DNA of 64,000 bases from Georgenia yuyongxinii (GTDB taxonomy: Bacteria; Actinomycetota; Actinomycetes; Actinomycetales; Actinomycetaceae), in contig NZ_CP040915.1 of assembly GCF_006352065.1 (NCBI RefSeq), positions 868,001-932,000 of the forward strand. Reading direction: 5' to 3'. Of this stretch, positions 9,306-40,327 are shown one piece after another (within the stretch, counting starts at the first letter, position 1; every line of letters starts with the position of its first letter). Both the position numbers and the translations under genes were made by a program. The notes beneath the pieces are model-generated. The model was not told the origin of the DNA, ran no database searches, and saw nothing but the letters and a program-made list of their open reading frames with translations.

Positions 9306-9529
9306 CGAGGGCCACCCGGCCGACCCTCGAAACCACGCGCGCGCCCGCGGCGTCTCGCCCCGCGTTCACCCCCTTTCACCCCCTCCCACGGGCCCTAATC
9401 GTCCGTCGCTCATCCCGAATCCCGGGCACCTGCGGGCGGTATGACCGGTTCGCTGTGGCTCGAGTCTCGTCGGCCATGTGTCGGCGTCGTCACCGCTCGT
9501 GCAGCCGCCTTCTTACGGGAGAGGACCCC

Positions 9530-18500: not shown

Positions 18501-20734
18501 ACGCGCTCGGCAACGGCACGTACACCGTCGAGGTCTCGGTCGGCGACGCCGGCTTCCTCGACTCCACCCACGGCGTCGCTGTGGAGGGTGTGAAGCTCAT
18601 CGACGGCTTTGCACCCACGGGGTCCGCGCCGTTCGCCTCTGCCACCCAGACCGTGGAGGTGACGGACGGCAGACTGTCGCTGACCAACACCGGCACCAAC
18701 ACCAAGGTCAACTACATCCGCATCACCGGTGAGGGCCTCGGTGCGCCCGCGGTCGGCGTCACGCTGAACGGCGTGAGCGTCGGCGCGAGCTACTCGGGCG
18801 GACCGGTGGAGGTCGCCATCAACGCCTCCGTGGCCGGCGGGACCACGCTCGAGTCGCTGACGTACAGCGTCAACGGGGGGCCGGCAACGGCGTACGTCGG
18901 GCCGTTCAACCTCGGCGTGGGCAACCACGTGCTCGAGGTGACCGCCGTCGACAGCGACGACCGCACCACCGTGCGGGAGATCGCCCTGGAGATCCTCGAC
19001 GTCGGCGGCACCGCGAAACTGACCAACACGCAGGTCACCCGCCAGGCAGGCGCGCCCGTCCCCGGGCTGTCCGAGGACTGGCTCGTGCTCCACAAGATCA
19101 ACTCCGGCCTGGGCGCCCACAAGTTCCCCAGCACCGGCACGGTCACCCTGGCAAACACGGGCACCAAGGACCTCCGGGTCACCGACGTCGCTCTGACCGG
19201 CTCCGCAGCGTCCAGCTTCACGCTGGGCACGCTGCCGGCCGCCCCGTTCACCCTTGCTCCGGGGCAGTCCGTCCCGGTCACGGTGAACTTCACCTCCACC
19301 ACCGGCGGCAAGGGCATCCGCGCCGCCCAGGTCAAGATCGCCTCCTCCGACGCGGCCTCCCCGATCACCACCCTCGAGGTGCGCGGCGGGTACATGACCT
19401 CGCCAGAGGGCGGCAACGAGCTCACGCTCAACCAGGTCTCGGCGCTGTACGGCTGGACCACGCAGATCGGCAACCTGGTCAACGGCGACGAGATGCGCAC
19501 GTCGGCGCTCAAGGGTGATGAGGTGCGGTCCTTCCAATGGAAGCGGATGGACTCCTCGAAGCCGGTCACTGCGCGGCAGCTCGCCGCGTTCCACGGTTGC
19601 TGCGGCCAGACGGAGACGATCAACGTCAACGGCGCCACGGCCACCCACCACGGGGACTACGGCCAGTCGATCTACCCGCTGAACAACGCCCAGTCGGGAC
19701 CGACGCAGCTGACCACCAACCCGACCGGCAACTTCAACCTGACGGTCTCCGGCCAGAACACCGCCAACCCGAACTACATGGCGGTCAAGACCTGGCCGGT
19801 CATCGACAAGGACGGCAAGGTCGTAGCCGGCTCCTGGATCGTCGGCCACGACTACATCAGCTCGCCCAACCAGTGCGGCATCGGTGCGACGAACTGCGAC
19901 TTCCAGGACAACGTCTACCTCGTCACCAACATCCTCCCGGTCACCCCGCACGACGCCACGGCGCCGGCGGCCCCGAGTGGGGTGGAGGCCGAGGTGGCCG
20001 GACAGACTGTGGTGCTCGGCTGGGACGCCTCCACCGAGGCCGACGTCGCGGGCTACCACGTGGAGCGCTCGCTCAGCGCGTCCGGTCCGTGGACGCGGCT
20101 GACCGGGGGGACCCCACTGACCGGCACGACGTTCACCGACTCCGCAGTGCCGGCGGCGGGCACCGGGTTCTACCGGGTGCTCGCGGTGGACCTGTCCGGC
20201 ACGGTCTCCACGGCGGCCACCCCGGTCGAGGTGGACCTGCCCGAGGTCGACGAGGCGCCGATCCGGATCAATGCCGGCGGCGGCGCCGTCACCCTCGGCG
20301 GCGTCCAGTGGTCTGCGGACCAGTACTTCTCCGGTGGGAAGTCCTACTCGAACCCCCAGGTCACCCAGATCGCGGGGACCACCGATGACGTGCTGTACCA
20401 GAGCGAGCGGTCGGCCACGTCGAACCTCGGCAGCTTCGGGTACGACATCCCGGTCAACGGCGGCGGCTACGTGGTGCGCCTCCACTTCGCCGAGATCTAC
20501 CACGGTGCCACCGGCGGCGGCGCCGGCGGCACAGGCAAGCGGGTCTTCAGCGCCAACCTCGAGGGCGGTCCCACCGAGATCACCAACCTCGACCTCAACG
20601 CCGTCGTCCCGCCGATGACCGCGCACGTGATCGACGTCCCGGTGACCGTCACTGACGGCAACCTCGACATCGACCTGACCGCCACCGTGAACCAGCCCAA
20701 GATCAGCGCGATCGAGGTGCTCCCCGTGCGCTGA
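9530..20734 (+). CDS. Giant secreted multi-domain carbohydrate-binding protein
   Basis: About 3,734 residues with a Sec signal (residues 1-36, RRRAG then AALAVVGAMALGATPAMS). Approximate order: concanavalin-like domain 37-311; FN3 314-414; malectin-like module A 419-581; FN3 x3 587-867; PA14 x3 874-1261; FN3 x2 1264-1462; malectin-like B 1467-1642; Ig-like 1644-1754; glucose/sorbosone-dehydrogenase-type beta-propeller 1762-2227; choice-of-anchor domain 2231-2337; DUF4114-like 2339-2522; malectin-like C, D, E 2529-3069; Ig-like 3071-3157; choice-of-anchor 3161-3289; second DUF4114-like 3291-3474; FN3 3477-3572; malectin 3576-3734. There is no LPXTG motif or C-terminal membrane helix, so it is probably released or held by carbohydrate binding. 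The ATG at 9530 follows GAGAGGA; open frame upstream to 9212 runs into the previous gene and is not signal-like. A glycan-binding or sugar-processing role is inferred. Confidence 0.85.
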   Translation: MSVSAPSRRRAGIASAAALAVVGAMALGATPAMSMPIATVPEDPAQWATSPYSPLPAGEIAAAGNHLELTFDGTEGGLHDGADVDTGFTMIQPSSANDDYYLPENLAVTGGNLTIKATKGIAYSNTGATGLINQQDNTLGVGVDANATSLELTTTVNSPAAATGSAQAGLWFGPDDQNYVKLALIGSDATGRQIQLSREINGLTANGAVGAPSADQIMVGLTQASIGTQPVHLRLVVNSVAGTLTGYYAIGAGAEQTLGTLALPTNYVDGTLLNPAIADVTSFAGIYATKRNMPEATALSYTFADFGLAELDSEPPAAPEGVTADAEAGQVSLAWNAAPVSSDVVGYRVYRASTSPVSTAGNGIGGTAALTTPAFTDAAVFVGQAYTYAVVAVDAAGNKSEPVEVQAQVPAIDGEPVALVNFQTAAATTPDGYTADTGAPYSPAAGSGWTSGATGAPLDLTTMTRLRAGSGVTPDPRLATIIHMQHTSTTVHGVWEYNLPNGTYTVVAAVGDTGSANGGGYDSTHAINAEGTAVISPFNPSSAREYDEGVATVEVIDGSLTIDAVGGSNTKLAYVGIYAAAQTPVAPAAPTGLTGAATAGGVQLEWTAVDGATGYDVFRSTEPAAPTGGAPLNAEPLTDAAFLDTTAEPGTTYYYAVVASNDGGTSPASGAVEVVVPADGMAPAAPGGVTGEATSTGVQLAWSAVDGAESYNVFRSAQATVPTDGTPVNAEPLTNANYLDTTAAAGQTYYYVVVAANAAGTSPASAAVEVTVPELPDVPAAPADMAGEATDDGVVLTWAASAGATSYEIYRGIGTQAQPEGQPHATVTAPTFTDSDVEPGTTYSYIVVALNDEGSSVPSVAVAVEVPIVDPSACTGSQWSAEYFLGTGLAGTPAAVECTDTVDQDWNQDGPADLRNYQFSARYTTVINGSGLYRFQAQADDGVRVIVDGETVIDQWVDQDGSQVHSAHVTLDAGSHTVVVEYYQAWGGAELSASFEKVDTTGECLPGQWSAQYYLGTELAGAPAESECVAGIDEDWSGQEGPAGIRNFQFSARYSTIVNDGAGVYTFSARADDGVRVIVDGTTVIDRWVDQDGKAAHTASLFLDEGAHDVVVEYYQAWGGAELHIGYDFTPGGSLCGAGQWAAEYFLGTGLGTQPAAQECVTGLDENWSQDGPAGLRNWQFSARYTTVVNEGAGTYRFEAQADDGVRVLVDGVPVIDQWVDQDGRDVHTGEVTLTDGSHTVVVEYYQGWGGAQLRVAYEKDGSDTEAPEAPTQLVATAGTTAIELSWSPTASTDAVGYHVYRGTEAGVTAGSTPLNTAPLTGTTYSDGTAAPGVTYYYVVTAVDTAGNESAVSNEATGLLTEEADTEAPAAPADLTATAGDGVVDLAWAASTSTDTVGYKVYRSLEPNVAITGELVSGEAPVTGTTYADTAVSNGTTYYYGVRAVDGAGNASLMSNEAFGVPRVPNDLDVMVDFAAAGTTPAAGYILDYGQAYGARTGANQGTGLTYGWVDEDGHALSLVGNGRDRGRAGIDERLDSILHMQYGDVDGTNGVDTEGTWEMAVPDGLYEVTIAVGDEGGTNGYDSVHVINAEAGVAIEGFQATAANEYLTATTTVGVWDGRLTLSPKGGTNTKIAYVEVTGLPMAPHVDTVLPDNRGTDHDVTAGVSATIRIPYAGVGVDPTTLQGNVRLFEAVTGTPVPVTVGTSGGNDVISLSPDESLDGNKTYRFVVTDAVKDNFGAAFVPFTSVFTTGSGEIIGEDEFTPLTGIEFEKVELPVAASKYWASFAFGPDGKLYGTTIGQGLFRMTVNEDGTLSNLENLGYQGRAMIGLVFDRDATAGNLRLWVTSTSANIGNETQEWISGISLLEGPNLQTERKVFTSLPRSLSDHLTNSIAYGPDGRLYFLQGSNQAAGDLDNSWGQRGEKLLTAAALVFDQDHPQVQAATTGNAPIDVKTADGGTYDPFAAGAPLKIHATGIRNAYDLVWHSNGNLYVPTNGTAGGANSPGVTANANGTFTRVAAPGIPGFATVNGRNVTDACLNHRIDGQPYTGGSVPAINNHPTQQDHLYRVEEHGYYGHPNPERCEWVLHEGNDPANPPTAAGQGGSKYPAGTKADSNYRGIAYNLGFNKSPNGALEYKSETFDGQLKGRLIVTRFSNNNDLIFLQADSATGKILGAQTSEGLTGVSNSTMTGVDGFNDPLEVVEDPNTGNLYVNQYNRGGSDQKLFLLRVPEEHQAPTLETSVEELVFSAVKSTTSAQKSVTVTNFSAETVTLGASLTGANAGEFALTGAGGPLAPGASATFQVQFKPGTTLGQRSAILRLTNADQTVDVGLYGLTMNGIEGGNEPTLHNVMGTLGYAINVGWTTLAGGMDPAAKGDEVLKPLFVKAGNGPVTMTPLAQYAPREDLPFGWYTGAGTTAERHQVGSIDINGYQSLLPPASPGSQTSFDPGTAEFGFYYFSNTFSRLGYTEDRLNSPASDAHRARIYPAKNRSGAPIANTYIVAFEDASNGDYQDYVFLVTGVKPAGEAPGPVEDAIKVNFSNEAAALPAGYLRDFGQPFGARTRSDQGTNLIYGWKDQATENPINLSVGGTTGPGNGRDRNTSQPDQRLDTLMHMQSADVTANGNTFNGVSAYAFWEIALPDGTYRVTVAAGDSTVNSDPEQHAINIENTQLIAPFAPTGAAGSNTRHKTAMTEVTLTDGFLTIDANGGTNTKINYVDIVPVDVDNDDPSDGAQVKVAFGPSSAPLTSGWVREAGSAYSDERGFGWVNAATGQPVDRTVATRYRTTPTAGVDYPTDNRLKSFAFLDNASQPSYTNGIWEYEVPNGTYRVAVSVGDAGFLDSTHGVAAEGQPVIASFVPTGTTAFQTGVRTVTVTDGKLSITNTGTNTKINWVSIAGDGLDPVDPPPTGEEAQIAFGPESAPLTAGWTREAGAAFSEARGFGWLDADTGQPVDRTVATRYRATAAGGIAYPSDDRLKSFAFMDSATQSYTNGTWEYALGNGTYTVEVSVGDAGFLDSTHGVAVEGVKLIDGFAPTGSAPFASATQTVEVTDGRLSLTNTGTNTKVNYIRITGEGLGAPAVGVTLNGVSVGASYSGGPVEVAINASVAGGTTLESLTYSVNGGPATAYVGPFNLGVGNHVLEVTAVDSDDRTTVREIALEILDVGGTAKLTNTQVTRQAGAPVPGLSEDWLVLHKINSGLGAHKFPSTGTVTLANTGTKDLRVTDVALTGSAASSFTLGTLPAAPFTLAPGQSVPVTVNFTSTTGGKGIRAAQVKIASSDAASPITTLEVRGGYMTSPEGGNELTLNQVSALYGWTTQIGNLVNGDEMRTSALKGDEVRSFQWKRMDSSKPVTARQLAAFHGCCGQTETINVNGATATHHGDYGQSIYPLNNAQSGPTQLTTNPTGNFNLTVSGQNTANPNYMAVKTWPVIDKDGKVVAGSWIVGHDYISSPNQCGIGATNCDFQDNVYLVTNILPVTPHDATAPAAPSGVEAEVAGQTVVLGWDASTEADVAGYHVERSLSASGPWTRLTGGTPLTGTTFTDSAVPAAGTGFYRVLAVDLSGTVSTAATPVEVDLPEVDEAPIRINAGGGAVTLGGVQWSADQYFSGGKSYSNPQVTQIAGTTDDVLYQSERSATSNLGSFGYDIPVNGGGYVVRLHFAEIYHGATGGGAGGTGKRVFSANLEGGPTEITNLDLNAVVPPMTAHVIDVPVTVTDGNLDIDLTATVNQPKISAIEVLPVR

Positions 20735-26712: not shown

Positions 26713-28581
26713 TCAGTTGCTCCGGCTGCGGGTGATCTCGGTGATCTCGCGGAAGAAGCCGTTGGTGGCGAGCAGGTGGTCGGGGGCGTCGAAGTCCTCG
26801 ATCTGACCGTCGACGACGACCATCACCCGGTCGCAGAACGACAGGGTGGTGAGCCGGTGCGCGACGAGGAAGATGAGCATCTCGCCCTTGAGCTGGCCGA
26901 GCGACTCGTGCACCAGGGCCTCTGAGCGCACATCCAGGGCGCTCGTGGGCTCGTCGAGGATCAGCACCTCGGGCTGGTCGGCGAGCGCGCGGGCCAGGCA
27001 GATCCGCTGGCTCTGGCCGCCGGAAACGGCAGCCGCCCGCTGCCCCACGACTGTGTCGTAGCCGTCTGGCCAGGACATGATCTCGTCGTGAATCCGGGCT
27101 CGGCGCGCGGCCGCCTCGACGTCGGCGTCACTGAGGTGCGGCCGGTGGTAGCGGATGTTGTCGGCGACCGTGCCCCAGATGAGCTGCGGCGTCTGAGGGA
27201 CATAGGCGACTCTTCGCTGCCAGTCATCCCGGCGGAACTCCCGGACGTCGCGGCCGTTGACCTGCACGCTCCCGTGCGCGGGATCGCGCAGGCGTAGGAG
27301 CATCTGGACGAGCGAGGACTTCCCAGCGCCGGAGGGGCCGACAACGCCGATCGCCTCCCCCATGGCGACCGTGAAGGACACCCCGCGCAGCACCTCGCGC
27401 CCGCCGGGATAGGTGTAGCCCACGTCACGCAGCCCGAACCACTCGATGACCGGGAGCGGCTGCTCGCCGTCCTGACGCGGGTGCGACACGTAGTTCTCGA
27501 TGGCGTCCGCCAGCCGGTGCATGAACGGGATGCGCTCGTCGAGGTTCGTCATGGCGGTCTGGATCTGCTGGCCGTAGGTGAGGGCTCGAACAAGGATGAG
27601 GACGACCCCGCCGAGCGTGGCGATCCGCTCCGTGCCCATCAGGGAGACCACGGCAAGCGCGACCACCAGCATGAGCAGGGCGATGCTCTGGTAGAGAGTC
27701 GGCACAGCGCTGGAGAGGAACCGCGTGCGCAGCATCGGCTGCCGCACGGCGTCGATGAGCGTGTAGAACCCGTCACGGTACGTGCGAGTGGCACCGAACA
27801 CCTCCGTCTCCTCAGCCATGAGGACGACCTCCTGCACGGCCTTGGAGTACTCGATGTTCTCGGCGCTCAACTTGGAGGCCTGCCGGCGCAGCCGGCCGGC
27901 CAAGGGGCGCAGCCCCAGGAACAGCCCGACCGACGCCACGGTCAGGACGACTGCGGCCGGCAGGTTCAGCGCGAACGCGGAGACGAGCAGGGAGAAGAAG
28001 ACGAGCAACACGGACAGGCCGTTGCCGAGGCTGATTATCGCCTGGCTCGAACTGTTGATGTGCGTGCTCATGAGTGACTGGAACTGGCCGTCCCGCTCCG
28101 CGGCCTTGACCGGCCAAGCGGATACGGTGAACGCGTCGAAAAGCCGGCGCCTCAGGCTGGCCACCGCCCGCGCGCTCATGCTTGCCGGAAGGTAGGCGAG
28201 CAACAGTTGCAGCGCACCGCGGGTCACCGCCAGGGCGGCCGCGGCGCCGAGCATGACGCCGCCGCTGGCGTGCAGCGAGACCGGGCCGACGTGGACGGCG
28301 ACCTCGGTCTGTCCCTGGGACAGTGCCCCGGCGATCGCAGCCACCAGACCGAGCAGTGCGGCCTCCGCGAAGCCGGCGATGACCGAGCCGATCACCAGCA
28401 GCAGCATCTGGGTCGGTGAGGTCCGGAAGAACGGGGACAGGCGCCGCCACGCCGCGGTCGCGCGGCGGAGCACCGTGACCGGGTTGGTGCGTGGCCGCGG
28501 CTGACGGGCTGGCGGGGCGACTGTCACACGGACGTCCTGAGGTCGTCTGGGCGGGGCATGGGGCTTGGGGGGTAGTTTCAC
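26713..28581 (-). CDS. ABC exporter, fused permease and ATPase (MsbA/PglK-like)
   Basis: A 622-residue half-transporter that would act as a dimer. Six membrane helices lie in about residues 45-320, followed by a complete nucleotide-binding domain: Walker A GPSGAGKSS (Lys421), Q-loop PQTPQ, signature VSGGQSQR, Walker B VLILDEPTSALD and H-loop VAHRL. The organisation resembles exporters of lipid-linked glycans (PglK type) or of peptides and lipids. The GTG at 28581 was chosen because GGAGGGA lies 9 nt upstream; an earlier in-frame GTG (28635) lacks such a site. It is divergent from the four-domain kinase-like gene across 135 bp. Export of a lipid-linked or modified glycan is inferred from position. 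Confidence 0.85.
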   Translation of the reverse strand: MKLPPKPHAPPRRPQDVRVTVAPPARQPRPRTNPVTVLRRATAAWRRLSPFFRTSPTQMLLLVIGSVIAGFAEAALLGLVAAIAGALSQGQTEVAVHVGPVSLHASGGVMLGAAAALAVTRGALQLLLAYLPASMSARAVASLRRRLFDAFTVSAWPVKAAERDGQFQSLMSTHINSSSQAIISLGNGLSVLLVFFSLLVSAFALNLPAAVVLTVASVGLFLGLRPLAGRLRRQASKLSAENIEYSKAVQEVVLMAEETEVFGATRTYRDGFYTLIDAVRQPMLRTRFLSSAVPTLYQSIALLMLVVALAVVSLMGTERIATLGGVVLILVRALTYGQQIQTAMTNLDERIPFMHRLADAIENYVSHPRQDGEQPLPVIEWFGLRDVGYTYPGGREVLRGVSFTVAMGEAIGVVGPSGAGKSSLVQMLLRLRDPAHGSVQVNGRDVREFRRDDWQRRVAYVPQTPQLIWGTVADNIRYHRPHLSDADVEAAARRARIHDEIMSWPDGYDTVVGQRAAAVSGGQSQRICLARALADQPEVLILDEPTSALDVRSEALVHESLGQLKGEMLIFLVAHRLTTLSFCDRVMVVVDGQIEDFDAPDHLLATNGFFREITEITRSRSN

Positions 28582-28702
28582 GCTAGTCCGTCCCTCCGGT
28601 GCCACGGGCGGGATCTGATGCGCAATTGACGGCACCGGGTGCCGATCTGCGTCGCGTTACGACATGTGGCCGCGTTCCGGCCCGGGTGCAGGCTGCGGAC
28701 CC

Positions 28703-28716: not shown

Positions 28717-30984
28717 ATGGAGCTCACGTCATTGCTCGACGGCGGTCGGGTGATCGAGGTCGGTGCGACCGGCCCGGAGGTTGGCCGAGTGCTCAGCGCA
28801 GCCGGCGCCCGCTACCTCGGGCTCGTGCCCACGCGTCGGCTTGTTGACGTGCGCAAGGCCGCTGGCGAGCTGGGGCAGCGGTTCCACCCGCTGCAGTCCG
28901 GCGAGGTGGTGATGCACAGCAGCACGGACATGCTCGTCCTGCGCGCAGGCTACAGCCGGCTCCTGTGGTGGCTGCGGGACCTGCGCGGTGTGCGATACGT
29001 GGCGGTCGAGCACGAGCCGGGATTCGGTTTGGAGCGGCGCGCGGCCGAGGCGCTGGGCCGGCTCGGGGGCCGCACCCGGCCGGTCGGGCGCTGCACCTGC
29101 GCCGGTCGCCGGTTCGACGTCATCGAGGTGCTTGCGCCGCAGCAGCCCCGCGTCAGGCACTACCTCTCGCCCGTCTGGGGGGTCGCCGGCCTCGGCCGCC
29201 GGCTGGAGGAGCGCGGGCTCAGCCACGTCGTCCTGCGGTGGTTCGAGGACCTGCCCCACCTCGACCCGGGTGAGGACCTCGACCTGCTCGTCGCCGATGC
29301 CGACCTGGCGGCGGTGCACGACTTGCTTGCGGAGGAGCCGGGCACGATTCCTGTCGACGTGTACAGCGAGACTGGCCGGCCGGGTGCCGATTTCCGGGGG
29401 GTGGCCTACTACCCGCCCGCGCTCGCCAGGCTCCTTCTCGATCGCGCGGAACGCCGCCCAGGCGGGTGGTGCGTGCCCGCCCCACGTGAACACTTCCTCT
29501 CGCTCGCCCACCACGCCGTCTACCACAAGGGCGAGCGCTCCGGGCTGACGTCCGCACTGTTCCCGGACCGATACCCCGACCCGGAACACGACTACGAGTC
29601 AGTCCTGGAGGCCCTGGCCCAGAATGTCGGCGCCGACGTGGCGCTCAATCTCGAGGCGGTCGACGAGCACCTGCACGAGCACGGGTGGCGGCCCCCGCCC
29701 GACGCCTTGCGCCGCCTCTCGGCGGCGAACGAGTGGGCCCGCAGACGCTTTCGACGCGCGGAGGGCGGGCCGCCGGAGCCGCCGGAGCCGGCGGTGTTCC
29801 TCGTCCGCGAGCGCACCGTCGACGTCCTTGCCATCGCGGAGGTGATCGGTGCCCTGGCGGTCTACGGCTTCGAGCCGCTCCGGGTGGTCGAGCTCGATCC
29901 CGCCGCGCGCGGGCGATGCGCCGAGCAGCTGCGCGGAGGTAACTGGGACCGCGGCCCGTTCCCGCGCTCCGGCGGCAGGCCGGCGGTCGCCGTCGTGGCG
30001 CTGCACTACGCGCCGCAGCCCACGGCCCCGTGGGTGCGTGAGCGCTACCCGCACCTGTCGAACGCGGACGTGCTGAAGGCCAAGCTGCGCGTGCGCGACC
30101 TCGTCGCTGCCCGCGTCCCCGAAGAGTCTGGGTTCAACCCCATGCACTCCTCCGACAACGAGGCCGAGGCCTGGGAGTACGTCGAGGTCGTGTTGCCGGC
30201 CGAGGTGGCCACATTGCGGGCGGAGGTTGAGCGCCGCCGGGCCGAGTTCCGCACGGATGTGCCGGTCGTCCGCGAGCTCAGCCGGGGGCGCCGGGCGAAG
30301 GTCGAGGTCGTGCGGCACGACCAGGGGGTCGCGGTGCGGAAGACGTTCGCCCCGTCGGCCCGCTCCCACCTCGCCCGCGAGCTGGCCGGGCTTGAGGAGC
30401 TCGCCCCGCACACCGACGTCCCCGAGGTGCTGGCCACCGGGGCGAACTGGCTCCTCACGCCCTTCTATGAGAACCGGCTGCGCTTGGGGGATCGTCCGGG
30501 TGGTCGTCTCGTCCCGTTGCGCGTGGCACGGGAGATGGTCGCCATGCTCCGCCGGATCCATGCGCTCGGGATCGACCTTGTTGACGTCAAGCCTCAGAAC
30601 TTCCTGCGCGAGCGGCGTGGGCTCCGGCTCGTCGACCTGGAGTTCCTCCACCGCTACGACGGCGCCGCGCCTCCGTTCGAGCGGATGTACGGGTTCGTCG
30701 GGGTACCGGAGGGGTTCGCTGGTGACGTGCCGCTGGCCGACGAGCTCACCTACGAGGCCCGCTGGCTGCCGTACACCGGGCTGACGCTCGACCAGCTCCT
30801 CCACGCACCTCGGTGGGCGCAGCATGGTTACCGCATGGTCTTCCGGGCTCGCCGCGTCCTGACCGGCTCGTGGACGCCGCTGCGGCGCGTGGGCGGACCC
30901 GTGCGACGCCGGTTGCGCGCGACCCTGCGCCGGTCCCGACGGGCGCTGCGGCGACGGGGGCTCATCGCGGTGGCTGAGCGATGA
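28717..30984 (+). CDS. Four-domain protein: methyltransferase-like, nucleotidyltransferase-like, NDK-like, kinase-like
   Basis: A 755-residue cytoplasmic protein of unusual build. Residues 1-140 look like a Rossmann/methyltransferase fold without a clear SAM motif. About 150-290 resemble the nucleotidyltransferase fold, with GEDLDLLV at 185-192 at the metal-site position. About 356-500 follow the layout of nucleoside-diphosphate kinase and contain NPMHSSD with His477 at the place of the NDK phospho-His. About 514-680 are protein-kinase-like: Lys542, catalytic loop Asp623-Val-Lys625-x-x-Asn628 and Asp640-Leu-Glu642 in place of DFG. A basic tail (705-755) follows. The ATG at 28717 has no Shine-Dalgarno but a -10-like TACAGT. 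I infer phosphoryl or nucleotidyl transfer to a glycan or its precursor; no named family is known to me. Confidence 0.72.
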   Translation: MELTSLLDGGRVIEVGATGPEVGRVLSAAGARYLGLVPTRRLVDVRKAAGELGQRFHPLQSGEVVMHSSTDMLVLRAGYSRLLWWLRDLRGVRYVAVEHEPGFGLERRAAEALGRLGGRTRPVGRCTCAGRRFDVIEVLAPQQPRVRHYLSPVWGVAGLGRRLEERGLSHVVLRWFEDLPHLDPGEDLDLLVADADLAAVHDLLAEEPGTIPVDVYSETGRPGADFRGVAYYPPALARLLLDRAERRPGGWCVPAPREHFLSLAHHAVYHKGERSGLTSALFPDRYPDPEHDYESVLEALAQNVGADVALNLEAVDEHLHEHGWRPPPDALRRLSAANEWARRRFRRAEGGPPEPPEPAVFLVRERTVDVLAIAEVIGALAVYGFEPLRVVELDPAARGRCAEQLRGGNWDRGPFPRSGGRPAVAVVALHYAPQPTAPWVRERYPHLSNADVLKAKLRVRDLVAARVPEESGFNPMHSSDNEAEAWEYVEVVLPAEVATLRAEVERRRAEFRTDVPVVRELSRGRRAKVEVVRHDQGVAVRKTFAPSARSHLARELAGLEELAPHTDVPEVLATGANWLLTPFYENRLRLGDRPGGRLVPLRVAREMVAMLRRIHALGIDLVDVKPQNFLRERRGLRLVDLEFLHRYDGAAPPFERMYGFVGVPEGFAGDVPLADELTYEARWLPYTGLTLDQLLHAPRWAQHGYRMVFRARRVLTGSWTPLRRVGGPVRRRLRATLRRSRRALRRRGLIAVAER

Positions 30985-31052: not shown

Positions 31053-31922
31053 TCAAAGGTAGAGAACGCGGAAGCGGACGCTGCCCGACACCCGGCCGGC
31101 GGCAGCCGACGCCTGCTCGGTCCAGCGCCACCGGACCCGGGGAGACAGCAGCGCGACCGGGGCCTGCGCGGCCAGGCCGGCCCAGCGCACGAGCACCCCG
31201 ACGAGCCGGGGCCGGGGCATGCCGTGGCGGGCGTAGTCCCGGAACAGCCGGCCGCGCGAGATCCCAGTGCGGTAGGCCTTGCGGGCGACCGCCCGCAGCT
31301 CGTGTCGGTGCCGGTAGTGGACGACGGCGTCGGGCGCGTAGGCCAGCCGGAACCCCGCGAGCTGGAGTCGCCAGCAGAACTCCGTGTCAGGACCGCCGTA
31401 GTCGTACTCCGGCGCGAAGCCGCCGAGCGCCTCGAAGGCGTCGCGCCGCACGGCGAGGTTCGCCGTGATCGCCCGGGGAAGGAAACCGGCGACGACGGGC
31501 AGGTGATCGGGGTGGCGCGGAAGGTACGGCTGAGAGCCGGGGTTGAGCAGGTCGTTCTCAATCGCCCCCCCCGCGGCGTCCGCGTCGGTGTGTGTGAGGG
31601 CCCGCGTCATCGCGGCGAGCCAGCCCGGCGCGACCTGGTCGTCGGCGTCGCAGAACAGGAGCAGCTTCCCGAACGCGGCCGCCGCGCCGGCATTGCGGGC
31701 GGCGGAGGTGCCCGGCGTCGTGCAGGAGATCACGCGCAGCGATGGCAGCACCGCCGCGTAGGTGCGACACACCTCAACCGTGGCGTCGGTGGAGCCGTTG
31801 TCGACGACGACGACCTCCCAGCCGACGTCCGCGTCCTGCGCCGCCAGCGCATCGAGCTGCGTCGCGATGGTGGCCGCCGCGTCGAGGGCGGGCACGACCA
31901 CGCTCACTGCGGTTTCGGCCAT
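31053..31922 (-). CDS. Glycosyltransferase family 2
   Basis: A 289-residue GT-A enzyme. It starts with VSVVVPALDAAATIATQLDA, then EVVVVDNGSTDATVEV for nucleotide binding, the metal-binding LLFCDADDQVAPGW and the acceptor-side GGPDTEFCWRLQLAG. There is no membrane anchor, so it acts on the inner membrane face. The ATG at 31922 has no strong Shine-Dalgarno; a TATCCT box ends 6 nt upstream, suggesting leaderless expression. It converges with the four-domain protein gene (68 bp apart) and is divergent from the methyltransferase-kinase gene. Donor and acceptor are unknown. Confidence 0.88.
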   Translation of the reverse strand: MAETAVSVVVPALDAAATIATQLDALAAQDADVGWEVVVVDNGSTDATVEVCRTYAAVLPSLRVISCTTPGTSAARNAGAAAAFGKLLLFCDADDQVAPGWLAAMTRALTHTDADAAGGAIENDLLNPGSQPYLPRHPDHLPVVAGFLPRAITANLAVRRDAFEALGGFAPEYDYGGPDTEFCWRLQLAGFRLAYAPDAVVHYRHRHELRAVARKAYRTGISRGRLFRDYARHGMPRPRLVGVLVRWAGLAAQAPVALLSPRVRWRWTEQASAAAGRVSGSVRFRVLYL

Positions 31923-31928
31923 TCCCGG

Positions 31929-31934
31929 AGGATA
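31929..31934 (-). promoter_or_regulatory. Candidate -10 box (TATCCT) for leaderless start at 31922
   Basis: Read on the minus strand, TATCCT ends 6 nt before the ATG at 31922. Only a short GGGA precedes the ATG, so a leaderless mRNA is plausible. Confidence 0.4.
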
Positions 31935-32010
31935 GCGACGGTGGACGGCCAGGACGTGAGAATGGTTCGTCTCTACGCCGGTTACCCCTCCGGGGTGTCC
32001 CGGTTCCCCC

Positions 32011-32016
32011 TAGTCT
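32011..32016 (+). promoter_or_regulatory. Candidate -10 box (TAGTCT) for leaderless start at 32024
   Basis: TAGTCT ends 7 nt before the ATG at 32024 with no Shine-Dalgarno between. Together with the opposite box at 31929-31934 it makes a 101 bp divergent intergenic region with two apparently leaderless starts. Confidence 0.42.
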
Positions 32017-32023
32017 CGCGGAC

Positions 32024-33910
32024 ATGGGTGACCGAGAGCTTGCGCGCCGGCCCCTTTGCGCCTGCGGGGAGGAGGTCGTCCTCGCCCTGCCCGGTTCGGG
32101 CCTCGCCGCGCGTAACGCGTGCCCGGCATGCCGCGAGCCCTACTCGGTCGACGATCTAGGCATCTTGCGCCTGGCAGCGACCGACCGGTCGTGGCGCGAC
32201 CTGCCTCATCATGTCGTCGCCGCAGTCCTCGCCGCATCCACGGCGGAGGCGCTCGTCCAGGAGATGCTCGACGGCGAAGCGCCGTGGCCGAGCGCGCTGC
32301 GACGCCGGCTCATGCACCCCTCGGGCGGCGGAGCCGCCACGCTGGTGGCAATTCAGCCCGGCGCGCGGGTGCTCGACCTCACCGGGTGGCCCACTTTGCC
32401 CCGGGCGCTGCGTTCGTTCGGTGCCAACGTTGCCGTCGGAGACTGGGTCTATGCCCGGCTCCGCTTCGCGGCGCTGCTGCAGGACGGCACGCCCGACGCC
32501 GTCCACCTCTCCCCGGACGCCGCCCTCCCGTGGACAGCCGGCACCTTCGACGCCGTCTTCGTCGACGTTTCCGAGCTCGAGAGCGCGGCGGGCATCCGGG
32601 GGCGCGACCGGCTGCTCAGGGAGGTCCGGCGCGTGCTCCGTGCTGAGGGCGTTGCCGTCCTCGGCACCCGCAATGGGCTACGGCACCTCCTGGAGCGCCC
32701 CAGGGGGGCCGGGGTGGGTTTGGCCGAGCTCGTGCGATCCGTCGTCCGGCCGGCGCAGAAGGACGTGGTTCGCCGATGCGGGCTCGAGGTGACGCGCACG
32801 GTAGTGCCTATGCCGCGTCGCGTGGGATGGCGCGCTCTGGTGCCCGGCGAGCGCCTCGCCGACCACCTTCGCGAGTCGCTGACAGGCACCTCGACCCCGC
32901 GCGCTGCCGCGGCGCGGGGGGCGGCGCGCCTGCTCGTGCGTCTAGGCGGCGCCCGGTGGGTAGCCGCCGACCACTACCTGATCGCCCAGCATCGCGGCGC
33001 CGTCACACCGACGCTCACCCTCGCGGAGCTGGTGCTGGCCGACGAGACCGCCAGAGCCTCCACAGGGCGGCGGGCTGAGATCCACGCCCTCAGTGACGCC
33101 CGTGTGGCGGTGGCCGGAGAGCACCACTTCGTCAAGCTTCCGCTCACCGCCGAGCAGCAGGAGAAGCTCGCCGCCGAGGTCGCCAAGACCGAGGCCGCGC
33201 GGAGGACCGCCTTCGCGCCCTTCGTCCTCAGCGGGGCACGCGTGGAGCGCAGGCACGGGCTTGTCTATGCCGTGTACCCGCGAGTGCCTGTGGTGCACGA
33301 CCCGGCGCGCCAACACGCCGCCGTGGAGCTCGCGCTCGGCCGGCTGGGCGTCGGCGTCGCGGGGCCACTGAGCAGCACGGCCTTCTGGGGCCGGCTCGCG
33401 ACCGATCGAGGTGCACGCGACGCCGCGGAGATCGGCGCCGGTCGCCTGCGCACGCTCGTGCTCGACGCCTGGGCCGATCGCGTCGTTCCGGTGGGCGCGA
33501 GCCATGGTGACCTGCACAGCGGCAACGTGCTGCTCCGTGCCGACGGCCCGCCGCTGCTGGTCGACTGGAACCGGTTCGAGATCCGTAACCCCTTGTTGCT
33601 CGACGGTGTGTACGCCGTCGTGGAGGCGTGTCGCGACGCTTCTGGAGGAACCCTCGCCAGCGCTCTCGAAGCCTTCGTCGACGACGAGATCGGCGGTCCG
33701 CTCGCACGCCGCGCGCGCACCCTGCTCGGGGACCTTGCTCCCCTGGAGGCCGCTGTTGTCGTCCTCCTCGACCGTGCCATGTCCTACGGTCAGCCCCGGC
33801 GCCGCCATCGCCCTTGGACGTTGCCTCCGCTCCAGCTGGCCCGTGCGACGCTCGACCGCCGGATGATGACCGTGCCCGAAGATCGGGCGGGCGACCGCAG
33901 GGAGGCCTGA
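32024..33910 (+). CDS. Methyltransferase-kinase fusion with N-terminal zinc ribbon
   Basis: A 628-residue cytoplasmic protein. Cys12-x-Cys14 and Cys33-x2-Cys36 form a Trm112-like zinc ribbon. Residues about 110-250 resemble a class I SAM methyltransferase (VLDLTGWPTLPRALRSFG at the motif I position, later LLREVRRVLRAEGVAVLGTR), though the glycine-rich loop is degenerate. About 340-620 form an aminoglycoside-phosphotransferase/kinase-like domain with VKLPLT and the catalytic loop SHGDLHSGNVLL (His494, Asp496, Asn501) followed by LLVDWNRFE (the DFG-position Asp). The start is ATG 32024, apparently leaderless. The pairing of methyltransferase with kinase recalls WbdD-type polysaccharide chain terminators; this is inference from domain logic, not from close similarity. 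Confidence 0.78.
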   Translation: MGDRELARRPLCACGEEVVLALPGSGLAARNACPACREPYSVDDLGILRLAATDRSWRDLPHHVVAAVLAASTAEALVQEMLDGEAPWPSALRRRLMHPSGGGAATLVAIQPGARVLDLTGWPTLPRALRSFGANVAVGDWVYARLRFAALLQDGTPDAVHLSPDAALPWTAGTFDAVFVDVSELESAAGIRGRDRLLREVRRVLRAEGVAVLGTRNGLRHLLERPRGAGVGLAELVRSVVRPAQKDVVRRCGLEVTRTVVPMPRRVGWRALVPGERLADHLRESLTGTSTPRAAAARGAARLLVRLGGARWVAADHYLIAQHRGAVTPTLTLAELVLADETARASTGRRAEIHALSDARVAVAGEHHFVKLPLTAEQQEKLAAEVAKTEAARRTAFAPFVLSGARVERRHGLVYAVYPRVPVVHDPARQHAAVELALGRLGVGVAGPLSSTAFWGRLATDRGARDAAEIGAGRLRTLVLDAWADRVVPVGASHGDLHSGNVLLRADGPPLLVDWNRFEIRNPLLLDGVYAVVEACRDASGGTLASALEAFVDDEIGGPLARRARTLLGDLAPLEAAVVVLLDRAMSYGQPRRRHRPWTLPPLQLARATLDRRMMTVPEDRAGDRREA

Positions 33911-34316: not shown

Positions 34317-37295
34317 ATGGTCGGCGTCAGGACCCAAACAGATCGGGGCGTGCTCGCGCGCTTTGCTTCCGCGCTAATCCTCGCCGTCCTCCTCGTGGGT
34401 TCCGTCTCGCCACTTTCAACGGCTGCAGCGACGGCAGCCGCCACACCGGTCGAGGTGGCGGTCACGGATCCGACCGACCTCGGCGCTGTGCCAGACGCCT
34501 CCGTGCCGGAGACCGATGCCTCGGTGGCGGCCGAGGCTGCACTAACCCTTCGGGACGTGCCCGTCTCCGTCAACACGGGTGAGAAGCCACAGTCCAAGGT
34601 GTGGCAGAACCGCGGCACCTGGTGGGGGGTGCTCGCCTCCACGCAAGTCTCACCATCGGGCACCTGGTTGTGGCGCTTCGACGGCTCCGGATGGACAAAC
34701 GTGCTCCGACTCGCCTCCGATGCCACCCTGCGCGCGGACGCAAAACGCGTGGGGGACGTCACACACATTCTGCTCCACGGTCCCGAGCCCGTCCTCGTGT
34801 CGGTCCAGTATGACGCGGCTACCAATGGTTACCGGCCGTGGGCCAGTCGGCCGACGGCCACGCCCCTGTCGATGTCCGGCAGCGAGACCGCGACGATCGA
34901 CATCGACTCCGTCGGTCGGATGTGGGTTGCCTATGACACCGCCAGCACCGTCCGCGTCCAGTACAGCGACGCTCCGTACGCCTCCTTCTCCAGCCCCATT
35001 ACGCTCGCCGCGGGCATCGCTACGGACGACATCGCCGCGGTCACCGCGATGCCGGGCCAGGTCGGGGTGATGTGGTCCAACCAGAACAGCAAGCGCTTCG
35101 GCTTCCGCACGCACGTCGACGGCGCGAGCGCGTCCACCTGGACCCCGGACGAGGTCCCAGCCAGCCAGTCCGCCGTGAATGTCGGCGGCGGGATGGCGGA
35201 CGACCACATCAACCTCACAGCCGGCTCCGACGGCACTCTCTACGCCGCGGTGAAGACCTCCTACAACAGCTCCAAGCAGCCGGCCATCGGGCTCCTCGTG
35301 CGCCGGCCGAGCGGTTCGTGGGACCGGCTCTACCCGGTGGACGGCTCCGGTACGCGTGGCATCGTCGTTCTCAACGAAGAAGACGAGACCGTGCGCGTGA
35401 TCTACAGCGCGGCCGTCAACTACGCCGACATCATGACGCGCACCGCCTCGATGGCGGACCTAAGCTTTGGCGCCGCGCAAACGCTCATGTCGGGCCGCTT
35501 CAACAACGCCACGAGCACCAAGGAGAACTGGACCGGGCAGGTCGTCGGCCTCGCATCCGGCGTCACCACCGCGCGAGCCTTCGTCATCGGTGCCGGAGCA
35601 ACCCCGCCAAAACCGGACCCGGTGGCACCGGTGGCGGCCGACGGCACCCTCATGGTGATGCAGGGGCAGTCCGCCGACGGCACGCTCCGGGTGACGGCCA
35701 GTTCTGGCCAGCCCTTGACGTACGAGGTGCTCCGGGCCCCGACCAAGGGGACGGTGGTTCTGCGTGACGCCGGTACGGGGGTGTTCGCGTACGCCGCCGC
35801 CGCCACCGCCGACGGCACCGACAGCTTCACGTTCCGGGTGCAGGAGGGCGGGCTGTGGTCGGCCCCCGCCACGGTCAGCATCACCATCAGCGCTTCCTCG
35901 GCGGTCCGTGGTGTGTGGTTGTTGGACGAGGGCGGGGGGACTGTGGTTGGTGACGGGTCGGGGCTGGGGAATCACGGGACGGTGAAGGGGGGTGTGTCGT
36001 GGGTGGCGGGCCGGTCGGGGTCGGCGTTGCGGCTGAACGGGTCGAGTGGGTATGTGGCGGTGTCGGATGCGGTGTCGCTGGACCTGACCGGGCCGATGAC
36101 GATCTCGGTGTGGGTGCGTCCGGAAGGGCTGGCCACGCAGTATGTGGTGAAGAAGGCGAAGAACAACGCTACGGATGGTTTCGAGCTGGGGTTGTCCAGC
36201 TCGGGGACGGCGTTCTTGCGGTTCAACGAGCGCACGTCGGGAAACACGTACCGGGTGGAGTCGTCGTCGAAGCTGCCGGTGGACGGGGCGACCTGGGTAC
36301 ACCTGGCGGGCACGTATGACGGGACGACGATGCGCCTGTTCGTTGGTGGGGCGTTGGAGGACTCGAAGGCGGGGCCGTCGGCGGTGCGGGCCAATAGTCT
36401 GGAGTTGGCGATCGGGGCCGAGTCGGGCGGGGGGCGCCCGTTCAAGGGGGCGATCGACGAGGTCGAGCTGTACGGGCAGGCCCTGAGCGCCCATGAGATC
36501 GCCGCCCTGGCAGGCACATCCAGCACCGATCCCGAACCGAGTCCGGAGCCGTCGCCGGAGCCGTCGCCGGAGCCGTCGCCGGAGCCGTCGCCGGAGCCGT
36601 CGCCGGAGCCGTCGCCGGAGCCGTCGCGGGAGCCGTCGCCGGAGCCGTCGCCGAGCCCCGCGCCCTCACCTTTCGACTCCCGTGGTGTGTGGTTGTTGGA
36701 CGAGGGCGGGGGGACTGTGGTTGGTGACGGGTCGGGGCTGGGGAATCACGGGACGGTGAAGGGGGGTGTGTCGTGGGTGGCGGGCCGGTCGGGGTCGGCG
36801 TTGCGGCTGAACGGGTCGAGTGGGTATGTGGCGGTGTCGGATGCGGTGTCGCTGGACCTGACCGGGCCGATGACGATCTCGGTGTGGGTGCGTCCGGAAG
36901 GGCTGGCCACGCAGTATGTGGTGAAGAAGGCGAAGAACAACGCTACGGATGGTTTCGAGCTGGGGTTGTCCAGCTCGGGGACGGCGTTCTTGCGGTTCAA
37001 CGAGCGCACGTCGGGAAACACGTACCGGGTGGAGTCGTCGTCGAAGCTGCCGGTGGACGGGGCGACCTGGGTACACCTGGCGGGCACGTATGACGGGACG
37101 ACGATGCGCCTGTTCGTTGGTGGGGCGTTGGAGGACTCGAAGGCGGGGCCGTCGGCGGTGCGGGCCAATAGTCTGGAGTTGGCGATCGGGGCCGAGTCGG
37201 GCGGGGGGCGCCCGTTCAAGGGGGCGATCGACGAGGTCGAGCTGTACGGGCAGGCCCTGAGCGCCCATGAGATCGCCGCCCTGGCCGCTCGGTAG
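34317..37295 (+). CDS. Secreted protein with two identical LamG domains
   Basis: A 992-residue exported protein. The signal peptide covers about residues 1-40 ([19 protein letters not shown], then Ala-rich). Residues about 70-425 look like a BNR/sialidase-type beta-propeller (repeated [10 protein letters not shown] and [12 protein letters not shown] elements). About 435-528 form an Ig/cadherin-like domain. Two LamG/concanavalin-like domains (about 531-732 and 789-990) are identical in protein and DNA, joined by a Pro-Ser-Pro-Glu repeat linker (about 739-784). There is no sortase motif or C-terminal anchor. LamG domains usually bind carbohydrates, so a surface-glycan-binding role is inferred. 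The ATG is set by AAGGAGGAGG 4 nt upstream. Confidence 0.85.
35906..36511 (+). repeat. 606 bp direct repeat, copy 1 (LamG module)
   Basis: Matches 36680-37285 base for base as far as I can compare; flanking bases differ immediately outside. The offset is 774 bp. Confidence 0.9.
36543..36650 (+). repeat. 12 bp tandem repeat (x9) coding the Pro-Ser-Pro-Glu linker
   Basis: Nine head-to-tail copies of CCGGAGCCGTCG. The eighth (36627-36638) has one substitution that changes Pro to Arg. It encodes a stiff, charged linker between the LamG copies and is a likely site of repeat-number variation. Confidence 0.92.
36680..37285 (+). repeat. 606 bp direct repeat, copy 2 (LamG module)
   Basis: Second copy of 35906-36511, ending four codons before the stop codon of the gene. 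The lack of any synonymous difference points to recent duplication or gene conversion. Confidence 0.9.
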
Positions 37296-37529: not shown

Positions 37530-38441
37530 TCACTTCGCGGGCTCGACCGTGCCGAGCAGCACGTTCGACGTTTTGTCCCAGGTGACATTGGGGCCGAGAT
37601 TTGCCCGGACGCCGTACCGGTAGTTCTCTTGGAAGACGTTGTTGCGGAACGTGCACTCGGCACCTTCAGAGCCCCCGCCTCCGCCGTTGATTGTGTAGTT
37701 GCCGCCATTCATCAAGTTGTTCTCCACCACGCAGTTGCGCACTCGGCCGTGTTCCTCGCCGAACTGGAAAGCGGCGTTGGCGGGATATCCAAGGTCCGGG
37801 TTGTAGGCCTGTAGGTTGTTGCCGTGGATGTTGATGTTCTTGCCTGACAACACCTGAATCACGTCGCCGTGGGTCTTGTCATCGTCTATGAGGCTATGGA
37901 TATATGAATCCTCGATGGTGACGTTGCCACCGTCGATGCGTGGGCCCTCCACCACGTTGTGGATGTGGACGCGGCGCAAGGTGTAGTCGCTCGACCCCAG
38001 TACCGGGTTGGCCTTTCCCTGGCCGTCGATCTCTGTGTCCTCCACCAGGAGGTTCGCACCCTTGACCTTGAGCGGGGTTCGCGCGGTGCCGAGGATCCGC
38101 GAGTTCCGGATGACAACGTTGTCCGCCAGGACCTTGACACTCCCGACGATCTCCAGGCCCTCAATGACCGCACCATCCTCCTCGATCGTCAATGATCCGG
38201 ACCGTGTCAGTGGCGTGCCCGCCGGGACGCCGGTATTGGAAGCGTCTGGGAAGTCGCTCATCTGAGACGACGGCGAAGGCGCTGGGGACTGGGCTGCTGG
38301 GGTGGGGGAGGCGGTCGGTCCGGCATCCGTGGCCCCGGGTTGCTGGAGCGTGCACGCGGTGAACGTGGTGACGGCGAGAAGCAGGAGCGACGCCAGGGCG
38401 ACCTCAACGGGGGCGGCACCCGCCCGAAGCTTGTTACGCAT
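37530..38441 (-). CDS. Right-handed beta-helix lipoprotein
   Basis: A 303-residue predicted lipoprotein. The signal ALASLLLLAVTTFTAC ends at Cys30, and a Pro/Ser/Thr-rich linker (about 35-65) separates the anchor from the globular part. The rest shows the periodic Asn/Val/Ile pattern of a right-handed parallel beta-helix (VKVLADNVVIRNSRILG, NVTIEDSYIHSL, GKNINIHGNNLQAYN, CVVENNLMNGGNYTI), the fold of pectate-lyase-like enzymes and epimerases. It would sit on the outer membrane face and may bind or trim polysaccharide. The ATG at 38441 was chosen because the lipoprotein signal begins there. It follows the GT2 gene by 29 bp in the same orientation. The enzyme activity, if any, is not identifiable. 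Confidence 0.78.
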   Translation of the reverse strand: MRNKLRAGAAPVEVALASLLLLAVTTFTACTLQQPGATDAGPTASPTPAAQSPAPSPSSQMSDFPDASNTGVPAGTPLTRSGSLTIEEDGAVIEGLEIVGSVKVLADNVVIRNSRILGTARTPLKVKGANLLVEDTEIDGQGKANPVLGSSDYTLRRVHIHNVVEGPRIDGGNVTIEDSYIHSLIDDDKTHGDVIQVLSGKNINIHGNNLQAYNPDLGYPANAAFQFGEEHGRVRNCVVENNLMNGGNYTINGGGGGSEGAECTFRNNVFQENYRYGVRANLGPNVTWDKTSNVLLGTVEPAK

Positions 38442-38470
38442 CGGACCCGTTCGTTTGCACCTGCCGCTAC

Positions 38471-39316
38471 TCACCACGACGACCGGCCCCGCACCAGGCG
38501 GCGAACCCGCTTGCGTCCCTGCTCGGCCTTCCATCGCCATCCGAAGTAGCGCCGGACGTCGAGGCTGGCCCGCTGCACGGCCAGAGCCGATTCGTGCTCC
38601 TGACGTGCCCACTGAGCCACGGACGTGATGCCCATCGCCTGGGCCGTCAGGGGCATGCGGCGCAGGAAGTCTTCGTCATCGCGGAAGAGACTGCGCGGGG
38701 AGCGGGGGTCGTCGAGGTTGTCCTCGCGGACGAACGGGAAGAGCCAGCCGTTCACCGCGCCGGCGCGGGCAAGCTTGAGGCAGTAGCGGGTGAAGGACTG
38801 TCCCGGAGCGAGCGGGCCGTGCCGCTGCACCAGCGCCCGCGGCAGAAGGTAGCCGCTGCCCTGGACCCAGTGATTGCGTAGTACCTGATGGCCATCGTGA
38901 AAGGTGGCGATCTTCGGCGCGGCGAGTTCGGGGACGAAGTCCTCTTCGCGGAAGCGCCATGATCCGACCGCGCCGAAGGCTGGGTTGGCCTCGTGAGCTG
39001 CACGCAGGCGCTCGATCCAGCCTGCCTCGGGCAGGCAGTCGTCGTCGACCTTCGAGACGTACACACCGTCGGCCTCGGCCCACAGCCAGTTCGTCGGGGG
39101 CGTCAGGCGAACGTTCGCGCGACTGTGGTGGAAACGGTGCACTCGCGGGTCGGCCGCGAGCTGCTTGACGACGGCGAGGGTTTCTTCGTGGTCGCCGTTG
39201 TGCCACAGCCAGATGCGAGTGCTTTCGTCACAGGTGGAGAGCAGGTGAGGCAGCGAGATTCGAACGTAGTCAGGGCTGTTGTAGGTGATCATTAGCACGT
39301 CGACGATGGGGGCCAT
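38471..39316 (-). CDS. Glycosyltransferase family 2
   Basis: A 281-residue GT-A enzyme. The start VDVLMITYNSPDYVRISLPH is the nucleotide-binding strand, and VYVSKVDDDCLPEAGW carries the metal-binding aspartates. The C-terminal region has VREDNLDDPRSPRSLFRDDE and a basic end suggesting peripheral membrane contact. The ATG at 39316 has GGAG 8 nt upstream and lies just before the domain; 26 further in-frame codons upstream are not GT-like. It heads a two-gene leftward operon with the beta-helix lipoprotein, divergent from the Wzz-like gene across 209 bp. Specificity is unknown. Confidence 0.85.
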   Translation of the reverse strand: MAPIVDVLMITYNSPDYVRISLPHLLSTCDESTRIWLWHNGDHEETLAVVKQLAADPRVHRFHHSRANVRLTPPTNWLWAEADGVYVSKVDDDCLPEAGWIERLRAAHEANPAFGAVGSWRFREEDFVPELAAPKIATFHDGHQVLRNHWVQGSGYLLPRALVQRHGPLAPGQSFTRYCLKLARAGAVNGWLFPFVREDNLDDPRSPRSLFRDDEDFLRRMPLTAQAMGITSVAQWARQEHESALAVQRASLDVRRYFGWRWKAEQGRKRVRRLVRGRSSW

Positions 39317-40323: not shown

Positions 40324-40327
40324 CGCG

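Follow-up and report, generated by a model that had tools for sequence, protein, structure and literature searches.

What does a protein do that joins, in a single chain, parts resembling a nucleotidyltransferase (NT), a nucleoside-diphosphate kinase (NDK) and a protein kinase, and does such a chain represent a real family? The question is raised by a gene, here called P0001, in a stretch of 64,000 nucleotides from the genome of Georgenia yuyongxinii (contig NZ_CP040915.1, positions 868,001 to 932,000, forward strand; hereafter 'the window'). The recurrence of this protein in distant bacteria beside flippase-like or transporter genes suggests that it is probably an undescribed enzyme that decorates a polymer with phosphate. 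A preliminary description of the locus, made from the sequence letters alone, had named no family with this order of four parts, and our domain-library searches likewise found no curated family that spans it; open-access literature searched with a few word combinations returned no description of such a fusion.

A four-part gene

Translation confirms that four motifs reported in the preliminary description, GEDLDLLV (residues 185–192), NPMHSSD (474–480, with His477), DVKPQN (623–628) and VDLEF (639–643), lie in one chain of 755 residues, whose parts are as follows (window coordinates, strand, feature and basis):

28717–30984, +, gene P0001, 755 amino acids (aa), four parts; open reading frame (ORF) list, translation and full-length relatives
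28717–29154, +, N-terminal part, residues 1–146, least conserved; no family match, ratio of non-synonymous to synonymous change (pN/pS) 0.63–0.72
29155–29751, +, NT-like part, residues 147–345; weak NTP_transf_5 matches, conserved aspartates
29269–29292, +, GEDLDLLV, residues 185–192; motif, alignment
29785–30216, +, NDK-like part, residues 357–500; Pfam matches in relatives, reciprocal hidden Markov models (HMMs), profile alignment
29932–29946, +, RGGNW, residues 406–410, family-specific and absent from the aligned Ndk proteins; alignment
30136–30156, +, NPMHSSD with His477, residues 474–480, aligned with N-x-x-HGSD of Ndk; motif search, alignment
30229–30816, +, kinase-like part, residues 505–700; Pkinase matches, PDB profile match
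30583–30600, +, DVKPQN catalytic loop, residues 623–628 (D623, N628); motif, alignment
30631–30645, +, VDLEF in the place of DFG, residues 639–643 (D640, E642); motif, alignment

P0001 is a genuine coding frame. It is preserved in a protein from the same genus (L002; 62% identity over residues 2–740) and in one from an Actinomycetes metagenome-assembled genome (MAG; L003; 50% identity over residues 11–730), and comparison with these two gave pN/pS values of 0.40–0.52 for the three enzyme-like parts, 0.63–0.72 for the N-terminal part and 0.69–0.71 for the C-terminal tail. A longer ORF variant could begin at 28639; in the relative P0004, the longest ORF opens at the position that matches 28717, which we therefore took as the start. 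Antisense ORFs are present too, and the possibility that P0001 is an antisense artefact of high-GC DNA was rejected because the relatives preserve its frame, as the identities and pN/pS values show. Twenty-two distinct full-length proteins have the four-part order (actinobacteria account for 3 of them, the order of Planococcus for 19), and the NT aspartates, His477 and the kinase residues are each retained in all 22, an invariance of the key motif residues that goes beyond chance.

The NDK-like, kinase-like and NT-like parts

The claim that His477 lies in an NDK-homologous part was borne out by Pfam matches in relatives, reciprocal HMM searches and a profile alignment onto HGSD. The Pfam family PF00334 aligned with the Planococcus protein P0002 over profile positions 6–132 of 135 (E = 7.5e-4), at 19.8 bits the best score of any full protein and below the Pfam cut-off of 27 bits; it matched the NDK-like domain alone in 2 of 6 members at E up to 10 (best 5e-5) and 6 of 18 NT+NDK members at E up to 1 (best 5.7e-4), while the NCBIfam model matched by most members was also an NDK model (5 of 18, best 0.013). 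An Ndk HMM, built on 33 of 36 ordinary Ndk loci fetched and thus on a set chosen by motif, since the ORF had to contain KP[DN] and H[GAS]SD patterns and three loci had no such ORF, scored 9 of 18 NDK-like parts higher than any of 3600 shuffles. In return, the family HMM scored 24 of the 33 ordinary Ndks above all 6600 shuffles, and a smaller version of the HMM and profile tests had the same outcome. Profile–profile alignment with hhalign gave two colinear blocks, one towards each end of the domain (E = 1.5e-4 over 33 columns and 4.8e-4 over 34 columns), the second of which places NPMHSSD on NLVHGSD of Ndk, whereas the controls gave 0.16 (reversed Ndk) and 0.077–0.76 (14 unrelated families). 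N474, H477 and D480 are each present in all 22 four-part proteins, as is R460, aligned with the arginine of Ndk's GTIR, and RGGNW was found in 22/22 four-part rows and in 8/8 other NDK-like rows, some of which are repeats.

P0001 was also considered as the housekeeping Ndk and rejected in that role because a separate, ordinary ndk exists elsewhere in the window's genome; the same holds for 5 of 5 genomes of relatives tested. As separate observations, one actinobacterial genome carries a weak second PF00334 match (G138:C1:818520-818936; 7.4e-10) in a 452-aa open frame, possibly another NDK fusion, and a single genome (G1575) of 38 scanned had no PF00334 match.

The kinase-like part, proposed earlier with DLE in place of DFG, also held up. 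Pkinase (PF00069) matches 11 of 12 members at E up to 1 (best 8.7e-7), and a profile of this part matched solved kinases in the PDB at 9e-7; the window's own copy scores 14.1 bits with Pkinase, below the cut-off of 31.7. K542, E555, D623, N628 and D640, which we take to be the beta-3 lysine, helix-C glutamate, catalytic aspartate, asparagine and metal aspartate, are each present in all 22 four-part proteins. DFG itself is not present: E642 occupies its third position, giving DLE or DFE throughout (22/22). On these comparisons the kinase assignment is sound, with its catalytic residues complete.

For the NT-like part, the conserved aspartates proposed earlier stood, with a DxD pair and a later aspartate (D187, D189 and D214, each 22/22; we infer a role in this part for D214), and the family assignment was less clear. 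No Pfam family other than NTP_transf_5 (PF14907), an uncharacterised nucleotidyltransferase family, matched several members here; it did so in 8 of 18 at E up to 1 (best 0.0084) and in 7 of 15 of a second set (best 0.0026), with bit scores that, where shown, are less than half the cut-off (for example, 14.8 versus 31.2 for P0005). A PDB profile search with this part found no solved relative. Residues 147–345 are likely to be an NT, an assignment that we treat as putative.

The 'Rossmann-like' N-terminus of the preliminary description was not confirmed. Pfam searches of N-terminal parts gave no family in more than 1 of 12 members, a PDB profile search found no solved relative and neither returned a methyltransferase; the window's N-terminal part is 12–19% identical to the Planococcus-order copies and 12–51% identical across the 12-member sample. 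Its sequence, read by eye, might represent an eroded methyltransferase-like fold.

Several results weigh against reading P0001 as a phosphotransfer enzyme. With the Ndk HMM, its NDK-like part reaches 1.9 bits, not above shuffles, and the Pfam search at E up to 10 returned no NDK match for P0001; its homology to Ndk is carried by its relatives. In the PDB, the best Ndk chain found with the NDK-like profile (E = 0.052) came behind three unrelated chains, and with the NT+NDK profile 14 of the 21 sequences listed were Ndk (best 0.08), neither result being significant. All 22 four-part proteins carry an arginine (Arg364) where Ndk has the lysine of KPD; the serine of HGSD is alanine in 13 of the 22, and RGGNW occupies the region in which Ndk has KPFF. 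The usual chemistry of NDK may therefore be lost. For the NT-like part, hhalign against NTP_transf_5 (a comparison set of 3 proteins over the cut-off, from 14 loci fetched) gave 0.032 and the best unrelated control gave 0.028, which leaves the assignment weak, and two alphaproteobacterial relatives from the order of Pelagibacterium no longer have the NT aspartates, although their NDK-like histidine persists. Homology of the NDK-like part to Ndk is nevertheless well supported, if distant, because the HMM and hhalign comparisons exceed their controls yet the PDB searches are not significant. Despite the two relatives with lost aspartates, we do not favour the 'pseudo-enzyme' of the preliminary description for proteins of the four-part form, since 22/22 retain the histidine along with the catalytic positions of the NT and kinase parts.

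Distribution and gene arrangement

A scan of genome contigs yielded six loci, in the MAG of L003, in four Planococcus/Planomicrobium genomes and in Pelagibacterium luteolum. Within the order of Planococcus halotolerans, the NDK-like profile matched 22 of 261 genomes (query genome counted): 4 encode a two-part NT+NDK protein of 422–423 aa without a kinase, and the other 18 encode the four-part protein at about 700–720 aa, one of them twice, giving the 19 proteins. A fourth actinobacterial case (G1422), split across two contig ends, was excluded from the 22. Elsewhere the NDK-like family is rare: the draw of the window's taxonomic family gave it in 2 of 101 genomes, that of the window's own class in 3 of 246 and that of its phylum in 1 of 396, each count including the window's own genome. 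The draw of Planococcus's class gave 8 of 329 (query genome included), seven already found and one new (G1107), whose protein (L066) matched G1107 alone in a draw of that genome's phylum (1 of 239). The order of Pelagibacterium gave 3 of 297 (query genome included), one of which (G789) was set aside as a probable chance match (E = 6.8e-4 over 59 positions) in a 407-aa ORF that by eye seems to be of acyltransferase type. There is no sign of a plasmid- or phage-borne family: P0001, searched in plasmids and not in phages, had no plasmid match, the L066 protein had none in plasmids and phages and the NDK-like profile had none in viral contigs.

A tree of the NT+NDK stretch, using 26 of 31 rows (the four two-part copies L016–L019 were left out, as was P0007, which fell under the length filter) and midpoint-rooted for drawing only, groups the four-part proteins of actinobacteria and the Planococcus order together (support 95/88). 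The two-part Planococcus form and the Pelagibacterium-order forms fall outside this group; some branches are very long and their placement is unsure.

NT-, NDK-like and kinase parts are kept together, either in one chain or in adjacent genes. In G1107, the gene for the NDK-like+NT protein L066 follows a flippase-like gene; directly after it comes a kinase gene (Pkinase 1.6e-12, Kdo 4.4e-4), which in turn precedes Rml-like genes (flippase and Rml by eye). The NT part of L066 was matched at 1.2e-8, and its NDK-like part scored 9.8 bits with the family HMM, above 2000/2000 shuffles (best shuffle 6.6); L066 joins the NDK-like family only tentatively because 213 of 2000 shuffles scored as well with the Ndk HMM and hhalign gave no match. 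Pelagibacterium luteolum has a tandem pair (L008, 5776–7825) in which the first, NT-like gene keeps its DxD and the second joins a degenerate NT-like part to an NDK-like one, as if a duplicate NT part had turned into a dead companion. As an aside, an APH/choline-kinase-like gene (APH 1.7e-7) lies further along the two-part NT+NDK cluster of Planococcus halotolerans (L004, 10500–11621).

Genomic context

Family genes sit in clusters for surface polysaccharides, and in most cases their neighbour is an ABC exporter or a flippase-like gene. The preliminary description had suggested that the protein, if active, could load phosphate onto a glycan or lipid carrier, and the survey of gene neighbourhoods that it called for favours a role in surface polysaccharides. 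In the window, the neighbours are:

26713–28635, −, ABC exporter, divergent to the P0001 gene and a conserved actinobacterial partner; ABC_tran 3.4e-33
31053–31922, −, family 2 glycosyltransferase (GT2) adjoining the P0001 gene; Pfam search
39536–41752, +, O-antigen ligase/polymerase-like (Wzy_C) protein in the same cluster; Pfam search

Besides the ABC exporter, the window's cluster thus holds GT2 enzymes and a Wzy_C protein. Relatives of the exporter (57–69% identity) occur at 3 of 3 other actinobacterial loci, adjoining the family gene at L078 and L074 and lying about 6 kb off at L076 (taken as the contig of L003); GT2 relatives (37–39% identity) stand beside the family gene at 2 of the 3 (L076 and L075). 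The Planococcus-order four-part gene lies in a cluster conserved in most of 19 loci, whose genes by eye encode two Wzx-like flippases, an aminotransferase, RmlA, RmlB, GDP-sugar enzymes, glycosyltransferases and a Wzy-like polymerase. One flippase-like gene (F2, by eye) is the immediate neighbour in 17 of these 19 loci, a count that weakens as support for the proposed role because the genomes are related and mostly share one operon, so that it does not stand for 17 independent events.

Other genes of the window's cluster were noted in passing. A second multi-part protein (31742–33910, +) reads by eye as methyltransferase-like plus an APH-like kinase (HGDLHSGN...VDWN); its only Pfam match was TCAD9 (2.3e-5), over the kinase-like stretch, and its start is uncertain because the gene overlaps the GT2 gene. 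A Laminin-G-like repeat protein (34317–37295) and a beta-helix protein (37530–38612) are possible surface or glycan-active proteins. Elsewhere in the window, a 3840-aa ORF (9212–20734, +) has two long ORFs, of 2033 and 1666 aa, on its antisense strand.

Discussion

We tentatively read P0001 as a cytoplasmic, multi-part phosphotransfer enzyme of surface-polysaccharide biosynthesis that would modify the repeat unit before export, a reading to which we give somewhat less than an even chance. We infer that it acts on the lipid-linked repeat unit or its donor, adding a phosphate-based group. The kinase part would use ATP to phosphorylate a sugar or small alcohol, or else a glycan hydroxyl; His477 would let the NDK-like part handle a phosphoryl or nucleotidyl group from a nucleoside triphosphate (NTP); and the NT-like part would transfer a phosphate-linked group to the lipid-linked repeat unit ahead of its transport by the flippase or exporter, while the N-terminal part may position the protein or bind glycan.

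Against known systems, the NDK-like part resembles Ndk/NME (PF00334) in its colinear match over the domain, in N-x-x-H-S-[SA]-D with the catalytic histidine and in R460 at the GTIR arginine; it differs in having arginine for the KPD lysine and RGGNW for the KPFF region, in sitting between two other parts and in scoring below the cut-off. With the kinases of surface glycans (PF00069; Kdo/WaaP, PF06293; the WbdD kinase) the family shares K542, E555, D623, N628 and D640 and the glycan setting, and it departs from them in DLE/DFE for DFG and in the fusion to NT- and NDK-like parts. Also multi-part, and encoded in a polysaccharide cluster of the kind with an ABC transporter, WbdD of E. coli O9a is a precedent for a kinase inside a multi-part glycan enzyme, but it is built of methyltransferase, kinase and coiled coil, with no NT or NDK-like part (PMC3482155). 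LicD (PF04991), a subgroup of the nucleotidyltransferase superfamily whose members are transferases using CDP conjugates (PMC11666461), offers a further likeness, an NT-type part with a kinase in glycan clusters, and phosphodiester modification as a model. Pfam searches of P0001 and family members gave no PF04991 match. LicD is not known to have an NDK-like part. Membership in the WbdD or LicD family is not supported by the tests made.

The best-surviving alternative, which we still consider unlikely, is a one-chain maker of nucleotide sugars: the kinase would make a sugar phosphate, the NT-like part would activate it with NTP and the NDK-like part would regenerate NTP from ATP. Kinase and nucleotide-handling parts do share one chain, as in FKP, a kinase–pyrophosphorylase fusion, and RmlA/RmlB and GDP-sugar genes (by eye) adjoin the gene in the Planococcus-order operon; that operon, however, already has its own nucleotidyltransferase-like genes (by eye), the DxD part weakly resembles NTP_transf_5 rather than the NTP_transferase family of such enzymes, and the lysine and loop of Ndk are lost.

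Extending our preferred reading, one chain might hold a whole line of phospho-decoration for a surface glycan, with the kinase acting on a small alcohol or sugar, the NDK-like part diverted from NDP phosphorylation to making an activated donor through a phosphoryl or nucleotidyl intermediate on His477, and the NT-like part handing a phosphodiester group to the repeat unit beside the flippase. We think this quite unlikely. Choline decoration uses a separate kinase, a cytidylyltransferase and LicD enzymes; if the extended proposal were true, one protein would stand in for these, and an NDK-fold enzyme would have new chemistry.

That P0001 is a regulatory or scaffold protein, with at least one of its three enzyme-like parts dead, would fit the lost Ndk lysine, DLE for DFG and the two relatives without NT aspartates, and is improbable given that the NT and kinase positions and the histidine persist in 22/22 while N-terminal identity to the window falls to 12–51% in the 12-member sample.

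Similarly improbable is an enzyme that caps or terminates the chain as WbdD does, its kinase phosphorylating the glycan end, its other parts finishing the cap and the ABC exporter reading it. The kinase gene does adjoin an ABC exporter in the window, the other actinobacterial loci (3 of 3) have one nearby, and WbdD itself phosphorylates and methylates the glycan end (PMC3482155); in the Planococcus order, however, the gene stands among Wzx/Wzy-like genes (by eye), where termination before export is unexpected, and the N-terminal part has no methyltransferase match in Pfam or the PDB.

A chance NDK motif on an unrelated fold, which would explain the best Pfam score of 19.8 bits against a cut-off of 27, the window's unmatched copy and the non-significant PDB matches, is very improbable beside hhalign blocks of 1.5e-4 and 4.8e-4 against controls of at least 0.077 (14 families) and 0.16 (reversed Ndk), and reciprocal HMM scores above all shuffles in 9/18 and 24/33.

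What emerges is a branch of the NDK superfamily, divergent and supported by sequence, that occurs in clusters for surface polysaccharides. In the relatives examined it is joined to an NT-like part (degenerate in two cases) and, in 22 proteins, to a kinase as well. The family provides a set of genes from separate phyla with which to ask whether the NDK-type histidine was recruited to glycan chemistry, and it may serve as a marker for phosphate-bearing surface polymers in environmental bacteria.

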